This document shows positions 33,817 through 45,784 of a DNA stretch of 64,000 bases, in pieces. A program made the position numbers and the translations under genes. Each line of letters begins with the position of its first letter. Position 1 is the first letter of the stretch. The notes beneath the pieces were generated by a model, which made no database searches, was not told the DNA's origin, and worked only from the letters and a program-made list of their open reading frames with translations. Source of the DNA: Bacteroidia bacterium (GTDB taxonomy: Bacteria; Bacteroidota; Bacteroidia; Flavobacteriales; Flavobacteriaceae); assembly GCA_030429955.1 (NCBI GenBank), contig JAUIGO010000012.1:1-64000 (forward strand). The letters are read 5' to 3'.

Positions 33817-33844
33817 GATGACCGATGACGGATGACCGATGACG
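33817..33844 (+). repeat. Heptamer array GATGACN x4
   Basis: GATGACC, GATGACG, GATGACC, GATGACG follow each other without a gap at a strict 7-nt period, beginning 6 nt after a stop codon. Confidence 0.88.
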
Positions 33845-33863: not shown

Positions 33864-33898
33864 GGTTGTCTGTTGTAAGTTGTTGGTTGTAATTTGTT
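33864..33898 (+). repeat. Heptamer array NGTTGTN x5
   Basis: GTTGT recurs at 33865, 33872, 33879 and 33886, with a degenerate fifth copy (TTTGT) at 33893, always 7 nt apart. It lies 19 nt after the GATGACN array. Confidence 0.82.
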
Positions 33899-33987: not shown

Positions 33988-35382
33988 ATGCCCAAGAAAA
34001 AAGGAATTCACTTTGAAATTTCCGAACGTAAGATATTGTTACGCATTATGGATGTCCTGTCTGTATTGGGTATTCTTTATCTAATAGGGTCAGGTTTTCA
34101 TTTTGAATATTTTACAGTAACCAAAGCACAGTGGTTTTGGTCTGTGGTGTTGGCTTTGTACATTACTATTTTTGGAACTGTTTTTGAACTGTATGACTTA
34201 CAGGCTTCAAGCAAGTTGGACACGACCTTTAGAAATATTGTATTAACAGCATCTCTTACGGTTTTGGTGTATTTGTTTACACCAGTGATTACACCTTTTC
34301 TGCCTGAAAAAAGAGTGCAAATACTCTATTTTTACTTAGCTATTATTAGTGCTATGTTTTTATGGCGTATTGCTTATGTAACCTTTATAGCCTCACCAAG
34401 ATTTTATAAGAAAGTTATTATTATTGGTGAAATTTCCAACTTGGAAACCATTTTAAAAACCATTGGGAAATCGGATCCTAATTACAAAATAGTAGGCTTT
34501 ATTAATAGTGAAGGGAAAGCCAAAGACCGTGTGAGTTTTAAGGGTTTAAAAGAGTACTTGCCTTATCAGTTACCAGATGTTATTGTTGAAGAACATATTT
34601 CAGAAATCGTTGTAGCTATTTATGATTCTGCAAACATTACTTCCGACATATATAGCCAGCTTACCATGTTGTTGGAAAAAGGATTTACCATACGTGAATA
34701 CACACAGGTGTATGAAGAAATCACAAAACGTGTTCCCGTACAGTATGTAGGCAAGGATTTCTATAAGTACTTTCCGTTTAGTCGCAGTAACCAGAACCGA
34801 TTGTATATGTTTTACCATCGGTTTATGGATATAACTTTTGCTATTATTGGCTTGGCTATTGGTGTTGTTTTATTGCCACTGGTACTCATCGGTAACCTTA
34901 TAGCGAACAGAGGCCCTTTATTTTACAAACAAGAGCGTGTTGGGAAGCATGGTGAGGTGTTTAATATTATTAAGTTTAGAACCATGGTTACTAACGCAGA
35001 AGCCAATGGTGCTAAATGGGCAGAAAAAAATGATGTTCGGGTAACGCCTTTTGGACGTGTACTACGCAATAGCAGAATAGATGAAATCCCTCAGTTTTAT
35101 AACATACTGAAAGGCGATATGAGCGTGATTGGACCACGACCAGAACGTCCCTATTTTGTGAAGGAACTATCACAGATTATCCCTTTTTATGAAACCAGAC
35201 ATAGCATAAAACCAGGTTTATCAGGTTGGGCTCAGGTGAATTCACGTTATGGCGCTTCAGTTGATGATAGCCTTGAAAAACTACAGTATGATTTGTTTTA
35301 TATCAAACACAGAAGCTTTTTCTTGGATGTTAATATTCTGGTGAAGACCTTTGGAACGGTGTTGTATTATAGAGGGCAGTAG
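33988..35382 (+). CDS. Polyprenyl-phosphate glycosyl-1-phosphate transferase (initiating sugar transferase)
   Basis: This enzyme would load the first sugar phosphate onto undecaprenyl phosphate and so start the repeat unit. It has about four N-terminal membrane helices (residues 20-140), a Rossmann-like CoA-binding region (KKVIIIGEISNLETIL), a further membrane segment (FAIIGLAIGVVLLPLVLIG), and the C-terminal catalytic domain: NIIKFRTMVTNAE, RNSRIDEIPQFYNILKGDM, SVIGPRPERPYF and KPGLSGWAQVN. This is the PssY/WcaJ-type exopolysaccharide transferase architecture. ATG 33988 (MPKKKGIHFEISERK) is preferred over TTG/ATG-like codons at 33946, which would lie in the promoter. It is the last gene of the locus. 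Confidence 0.92.
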   Translation: MPKKKGIHFEISERKILLRIMDVLSVLGILYLIGSGFHFEYFTVTKAQWFWSVVLALYITIFGTVFELYDLQASSKLDTTFRNIVLTASLTVLVYLFTPVITPFLPEKRVQILYFYLAIISAMFLWRIAYVTFIASPRFYKKVIIIGEISNLETILKTIGKSDPNYKIVGFINSEGKAKDRVSFKGLKEYLPYQLPDVIVEEHISEIVVAIYDSANITSDIYSQLTMLLEKGFTIREYTQVYEEITKRVPVQYVGKDFYKYFPFSRSNQNRLYMFYHRFMDITFAIIGLAIGVVLLPLVLIGNLIANRGPLFYKQERVGKHGEVFNIIKFRTMVTNAEANGAKWAEKNDVRVTPFGRVLRNSRIDEIPQFYNILKGDMSVIGPRPERPYFVKELSQIIPFYETRHSIKPGLSGWAQVNSRYGASVDDSLEKLQYDLFYIKHRSFFLDVNILVKTFGTVLYYRGQ

Positions 35383-35385
35383 ATT

Positions 35386-35468
35386 CAGTCTACAGTGTTC
35401 AGTAGGCAGTTCTCAGTGTTCAGTAGGCAGTAGGCAGTTAGCAGTAGGCAGTCGCAGTTCAGTCTCAG
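35386..35468 (+). repeat. Heptamer array CAGTNNN, about 10 units
   Basis: CAGT recurs at 35386, 35393, 35400, 35407, 35414, 35421, 35428, 35435, 35442 and 35449, always 7 nt apart; the spacing then becomes 5-6 nt (35455, 35460). An 18-nt stretch (35393-35410) is repeated exactly at 35414-35431. The array starts 4 nt after a stop codon, between convergent genes. Confidence 0.9.
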
Positions 35469-35488
35469 GACATATTGTGTTGAGGTGT

Positions 35489-45749: not shown

Positions 45750-45784
45750 CTTCTGACTTCAAGCTTCGGTCTTCAGTCTTCATT
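45750..45784 (+). repeat. Heptamer array CTTCNNN x5
   Basis: CTTC occurs at 45750, 45757, 45764, 45771 and 45778, exactly 7 nt apart. The array starts 12 nt after the recQ stop and ends just before the -7 box of the next gene. Confidence 0.85.

Follow-up and report, generated by a model that had tools for sequence, protein, structure and literature searches.

A CAGTNNN heptamer array in a Flavobacteriaceae genome as a probable solo arm of elements with an S23 gene between inverted arrays

The CAGTNNN array at positions 35386..35452 of the window, which is the whole stretch of 64,000 nucleotides that was analysed, is probably (at a likelihood of roughly 70%) a solo arm belonging to a class of small elements whose complete form carries an S23/IVP (PF05635) gene between inverted arrays. 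The complete element would be laid out as (CAGTNNN)n -> S23 gene <- (CAGTNNN)n. Each S23 subfamily would have its own core of about four nucleotides that recurs every 7 nt, and sometimes every 6 or 8, while the rest of the unit is free, and CAGTNNN would be the repeat of the subfamily termed A1. Because arrays are found in inverted pairs around S23 genes, with a core that varies with the subfamily, the window array is best interpreted as one piece of such an element. A first-pass annotation had recognized the core and the spacing, but missed both the inverted pairing around S23 genes and the change of core with the S23 subfamily.

The window array and its neighbours

The array comprises ten CAGT units on the forward strand at exactly 7 nt, where 0 are expected in shuffles. 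The window contains 8 three-unit CAGT runs; 100 dinucleotide-preserving shuffles gave none (0.00). The triplets between the cores are, in order, CTA, GTT, AGG, TCT, GTT, AGG, AGG, TAG and AGG, in agreement with the earlier view that the core and the 7-nt step are kept and the NNN positions are free. A decayed tail follows on the same strand (35453..35469), with CAGT-type units at steps of 6, 5 and 6 nt and a final CAGG; it reads CAGT-CG-CAGT-T-CAGT-CT-CAGG. The 6-nt units CAGTCT and CAGTCG are a frequent variant in relatives, around S23 genes. The ten units at exact spacing with subsequent phase decay are thus as first described, and so is an 18-nt exact direct repeat, CAGTGTTCAGTAGGCAGT, on the forward strand at 35393-35410 and 35414-35431. 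The offset of this repeat is 21 nt, or three units, which is consistent with the proposal that the array grows by duplication; also consistent are pure runs elsewhere, such as (CAGTAAG)n(CAGTCAT)n in the relative G003.

The array lies between convergent genes. Upstream is a sugar transferase gene (PF02397; 33946..35382, forward strand), whose stop codon ends at 35382, placing the first CAGT 4 nt after the stop, as had been reported. The convergent neighbour is an Lnb_N/5TMH_Lnb membrane protein gene (PF13387/PF25221; 35489..36655, reverse strand).

Tandem intergenic 7-nt units in many copies per genome place the array among bacterial heptanucleotide repeats of the STRR, TAACTGA and GGGAATC kind. 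With the S23 elements described here it shares a fixed core and free remainder at a 7-nt pitch, across ten units, and its core matches the arms around an S23 gene of this genus (the A1 element of G003, locus L009). Neither an S23 gene nor a second inverted arm is present in the window gap, which is why we class the array as a solo arm and not a complete element. The 93% complete assembly of this genome (G000) yielded no A1 gene. The array itself lacks a neighbouring A1 gene and is best taken, on sequence grounds, as either an orphan arm or a copy that has dispersed.

The same site in related genomes

The transferase/Lnb-type gene pair is kept in relatives without the array. Between the last codons, the intergenic gap is 112 bp here and 8-64 bp in those relatives, which have no such array. 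The window array is therefore a lineage-specific addition. In G003, the closest relative with data, the same gap contains part of an S23/IVP gene and decayed heptamers, and this fragment led us to test S23 genes (PF05635) for flanking arrays. The fragment belongs to a subfamily different from A1 and has a GGTTA-like core. Because the cores differ, the idea that the window array is the left arm of this S23 piece is not proven. Across G000, G002, G003 and G016, no other copy of this 272-bp piece is present.

In the related genome G016, a TGAANN hexamer array follows the transferase ortholog (L033), in place of the CAGT array. In 800 kb, G016 has eight TGAA arrays spaced at 6 nt, which establishes that fixed-core arrays with this pitch exist.

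The A1 subfamily lies between inverted CAGT arrays

S23 genes flanked by CAGT arrays have the upstream array on the plus strand and the downstream array on the minus strand relative to the gene. This layout is found in Bacteroidota, Planctomycetota, Myxococcota and one viral contig. A search with a profile of the A1 subfamily yielded 30 loci, nearly all of them new. Upstream arrays are on the plus strand in 21 of the 30 and on the minus strand in 3, whereas downstream arrays are on the minus strand in 25 and on the plus strand in none; run counts in G016 put the chance expectation near 0.01 run for each flank and strand.

One complete A1 element, in G003, spans 469 bp (L009:1498-1966), and its first CAGT is 3 bp inside the left break. 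Judged by alignment, this element has an empty site in our genome, where 37 unrelated bp face it and the flanks are 86% identical. The A1 protein is under purifying selection according to its coding sequences (median dN/dS 0.18).

The longest stretch common to both arms is 10.2 within a locus versus 8.5 between loci for A1, and 12.2 versus 7.5 for other S23 subfamilies. A hairpin formed by full complementarity of the arms was considered and holds only in part, as the NNN positions of paired arrays mostly differ.

The predicted fold of A1 is a four-helix bundle (mean pLDDT 91). Its nearest structures are 2gsc, which is the S23 protein XCC0516 of X. campestris, and 2rld, each with five chains; both of these solved S23 structures are labelled as having unknown function. 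To our knowledge, no catalytic site is known for S23.

Other S23 subfamilies have other cores in the same geometry

S23 genes outside A1 also are flanked by inverted short-period arrays, with other cores. The arms are GAAGNNN at L322 (G000:C71:39456, in this genome) and L330, CAATNNN at L333, TTAGNNN at L317, TGACNNN at L332 (G000:C9, in this genome), TGTANNN at L310, AGTTANN at L127, and 8-mers with GTGAT at L326. GGGA is a further core among the inverted period-7 arrays of S23 subfamilies.

The sharing of a core was scored as a period-7 tetramer common to the upstream plus strand and the downstream minus strand at 112 S23 loci from many phyla. Such a core is present at 66% of the loci (34% if both sides must have two or more repeats), compared with 14% (6%) for direct orientation and, when the partner is swapped from another locus, 19% (5%). 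Ordinary ORFs of G016 share a core in 4-6% of cases. The lag spectrum over the S23 loci has peaks at 7 and 14 and a small peak at 6. In 26 gammaproteobacterial loci, which had no role in deriving the geometry rule and were scored at period 7 only, inverted sharing occurs in 21, direct sharing in 9, and swapped sharing in 30%. Named cyanobacterial plasmids carry similar G-rich arrays, and since several have pitches other than 7, the period-7 score picks up only some of them.

S23 genes with short repeats also occur inside CRISPR operons (L470/L471). One is between cas6 and cas4 on a plasmid of Anabaena sp. 90, and another is between cas10 and cmr3 on a plasmid of Picosynechococcus PCC 7003.

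Three further arrays are found in the window. Four GATGACN units (33817..33843, forward strand) begin 7 nt past the stop of the glycosyltransferase gene that precedes them, and their TGAC core is also the arm core of the S23 gene at L332 in this genome. About five GTTGTNN units at period 7 are located at 33865..33897 (forward strand). Five GAAGNNN units, with all four NNN different, are located at 45750..45781 on the reverse strand, and share their core with the arms of the S23 gene at L322. In this genome, an S23 gene is flanked by GAAG arms upstream and downstream, and about nine more GAAG arrays are dispersed, including the one in the window. GAAG is unchanged when its letters are reversed, and for this core the backward-pattern control gives no information.

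Arrays and S23 genes are associated across genomes

The core changes along with the protein. Pairs of loci have a core in common in 6% of cases when their S23 identity is below 20%, in 67% at 55-75% identity and in 73% above 75%, and core similarity correlates with S23 identity (Mantel r = 0.36; 0 of 2000 permutations as high). As far as sequence comparison goes, the high-identity part of this co-variation may reflect plain common descent of the flanks, but common descent leaves the inverted sharing unexplained.

A sample of the family comprised 199 genomes from 198 genera, in which a five-unit CAGT run defined an array genome. Such runs are found in 48 of the 199, so the absence of the core from relatives, named in the first-pass annotation as grounds for rejecting its reading, does not hold. 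Outside a few genomes, matches to the backward pattern are far less frequent; G110 and G194 are rich in it (135 and 24 TGACNNN matches). S23 proteins are encoded in 47 of the 48 array genomes and in 98 of the 151 others. Members of A1 are found in 21 of the 48 and in 11 of the 151 (p = 4e-8), and 27 array genomes lack A1. Corrected for genome size, the odds ratios are 8.1 for A1 and 18.9 for any S23; these tests use one genome per genus but otherwise ignore kinship, and many of the genomes are drafts. The only array genome with no detected S23 gene is G194.

Conceivably, S23 genes are passengers that settle at existing inverted pairs, and something else in the host makes or maintains the arrays. 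Solo arrays do far exceed S23 genes in number (800 kb of G016 contain 29 arrays but 3 S23 domains), and array pairs lacking S23 are common: those at most 150 bp apart in the named genomes include 18 convergent and 0 divergent pairs. Nevertheless, arrays depend on S23 genes across genomes, with an array in only 1 of 54 S23-less genomes. Moreover, the core shifts with the S23 subfamily even within one genome, as for GAAG and TGAC, and the geometry rule is valid in distant phyla. We therefore regard passengers as unlikely, although this is the strongest of the alternatives to the reading of the window array as a solo arm.

Solo arrays

Array statistics free of prior choice were obtained from 800 kb of G016 by scanning all 256 tetramers at periods 5-12. 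CAGT at 7 nt is the dominant class (29 arrays, 247 units). The next period-7 classes have at most 6 arrays each and are largely shifted readings of CAGT arrays; TGAA at 6 nt is an unrelated class. In G000, four-unit CAGT runs are found at 8 places, the window included. These 7 other places, each with a run of at least four units, dispose of the objection, anticipated at first pass, that no similar array exists at other loci.

Of 208 CAGT array regions, 197 show no S23 similarity. Simple decay of an S23 element therefore does not account for most solo arrays and is ruled out as their general origin. G016 array pairs at most 150 bp apart are convergent in 3 cases and divergent in 0, and same-strand pairs occur too. 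Seven IMG/VR contigs (L184, L192, L199, L213, L221, L223 and L242) are 4-14 kb long and hold as many as 12 CAGT matches, and their array pairs at most 150 bp apart are convergent in 87 cases and otherwise in 1; these contigs appear related to one another and may not be viral. Draft contigs often end in arrays or within an S23 gene (G000:C68:32, G022:C8:5, G003:C101:1), which probably makes draft-genome tallies of both arrays and elements too low.

One solo CAGT array is orthologous between G000 and G003 (L476, G000:C91, 1326-1357; L477, G003:C74, 1995-2026) and is identical at 32 of 32 positions. It lies within at least 73 identical bases, and the surrounding 3.2 kb is 88.8% identical. Constraint on this array is possible, from the alignment.

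Solo arrays in this genus start mostly 3-6 nt past a sense stop codon, and most G016 arrays abut a gene end by their 5' end. Both observations would fit a regulatory element at gene ends, in which the array is a sense 3'-UTR signal for mRNA 3' end formation, stability or attenuation that is read by a host protein, S23 or another; for comparison, a translational role has been proposed for TAACTGA repeats. However, an antisense gene precedes 7 of 23 intergenic arrays in G016, and the position may also mark where insertions are tolerated. Because the downstream arm is antisense to the S23 gene (25/30 versus 0/30), a pure sense 3'-UTR element is ruled out for complete elements, and we consider a gene-end signal improbable for the arrays in general. 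Marginally less probable still is a neutral heptanucleotide satellite in which slippage, an explanation proposed for long simple repeats in bacteria (cited in PMC4679880), favours 7-nt units that grow and drift with no protein involved: the internal duplication at a three-unit offset, the pure runs in relatives and the lineage-specific presence at the window site agree with it, but slippage would not hold four of seven positions while three vary, does not pick CAGT out of 256 tetramers, gives no reason to expect inverted pairs around a single gene family or co-variation with that family, and sits poorly with a 32/32 identical orthologous array in surroundings that are 89% identical.

Relation to known repeats and elements

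TAACTGA heptamer repeats are found in Beggiatoaceae, cyanobacteria and five Bacteroidetes (MacGregor 2015, PMC4679880). They also are intergenic 7-nt direct repeats, mixed with related heptamers (PMC4679880), and on the opposite strand TAACTGA corresponds, up to phase, to CAGTTAT, which is CAGTNNN with NNN = TAT. No unit of the window array is CAGTTAT. The TAACTGA repeat is one fixed heptamer that in BOGUAY is mostly upstream of start codons, and no partner gene is named for it (PMC4679880), whereas CAGTNNN arrays have a fixed tetramer with free NNN, lie mostly after stop codons and have a partner gene family. A text search of MacGregor 2015 (PMC4679880) returned no mention of S23.

The GGGAATC/GGGANTN repeats of Xanthomonas, as described in the portion of PMC4692102 consulted, have a fixed core with free positions, form convergent pairs close together, and are far nearer to the 5' ORF than to the downstream ORF (mean 28 versus 160 nt). 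In all three features they resemble the arrays described here, and the gammaproteobacterial S23 locus L507 has units of the GGGAATC type. They are discussed there as G-quadruplexes, and CAGT has no G-tract; the same portion of PMC4692102 makes no link to S23. Phages were considered as carriers, and the Xanthomonas S23 has no match in 50,697 phage records.

The presence of one gene and many dispersed repeat copies suggests a comparison with REPIN/RAYT (TnpA-REP) systems, in which one gene likewise lies between inverted copies of its own repeat and solo or inverted copies are dispersed in the same genome (PMC3116915, PMC8266576). However, REP repeats are palindromic and the RAYT proteins are tyrosine transposases of the HUH type (PMC3116915, PMC8266576), whereas S23 elements have non-palindromic arrays and a four-helix bundle gene. 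CAGTNNN units are direct repeats and not palindromic REPs with a stem-loop, and the gene between the inverted repeats encodes PF05635 and not an HUH tyrosine transposase. By this analogy, the S23 system appears to work like REPIN/RAYT but is not a member.

Intervening sequences (IVS) with an S23 ORF in 23S rRNA, such as that of Coxiella (PMC4990558), also are small, selfish-looking elements with a PF05635 gene. They sit in 23S rRNA and are removed by RNase III (PMC4990558), whereas the elements described here bear heptamer arrays and, like the window array, are placed between protein genes in every case examined. Finally, bAvd of diversity-generating retroelements (Avd, PDB 4dwl), the next structure after 2gsc and 2rld, has the same fold as A1 (TM 0.80). 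The comparison covered fold and profile; the A1 protein of G003 also exceeds the threshold of the bAvd Pfam model (43.1 bits, cut-off 40) but scores far higher with PF05635 (114 bits). In the open-access literature searched we found no paper linking S23 to heptamer arrays.

A possible mechanism and its implications

An S23 oligomer would bind the nucleic acid of the array, with each subunit contacting one core and NNN serving as a spacer, and such binding would account for a constant core and pitch with drifting NNN. The ring protein TRAP binds RNA triplets with free bases between them, and a ring that reads a fixed core with a free 3-nt spacer would resemble it. Solo arrays might be non-autonomous copies that are spread or kept in trans at gene ends. 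Spreading would need a strand-transfer activity, for which host enzymes or, as for Avd, a partner reverse transcriptase are guesses.

A broader proposal, which we advance tentatively as somewhat short of an even chance, is that the S23/IVP family binds arrays throughout the bacteria, with a subfamily-specific core of about 4 nt at 7-nt pitch and one unit per ring subunit. S23 and its arrays might then form a two-part selfish system behind most known bacterial heptanucleotide repeats, including cyanobacterial STRRs, TAACTGA, GGGAATC and CAGTNNN.

Tandem heptanucleotides are known from several bacterial groups and have no agreed cause. The elements described here are a candidate first lead on two old puzzles, namely the nature of bacterial heptamer arrays and the role of S23. 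Because a flanking repeat that tracks S23 phylogeny amounts to a set of protein/target pairs, binding, specificity and movement become directly testable. If the proposal is true, it would also supply an annotation rule, in which the heptamer core in an intergenic gap indicates the matching S23 subfamily.
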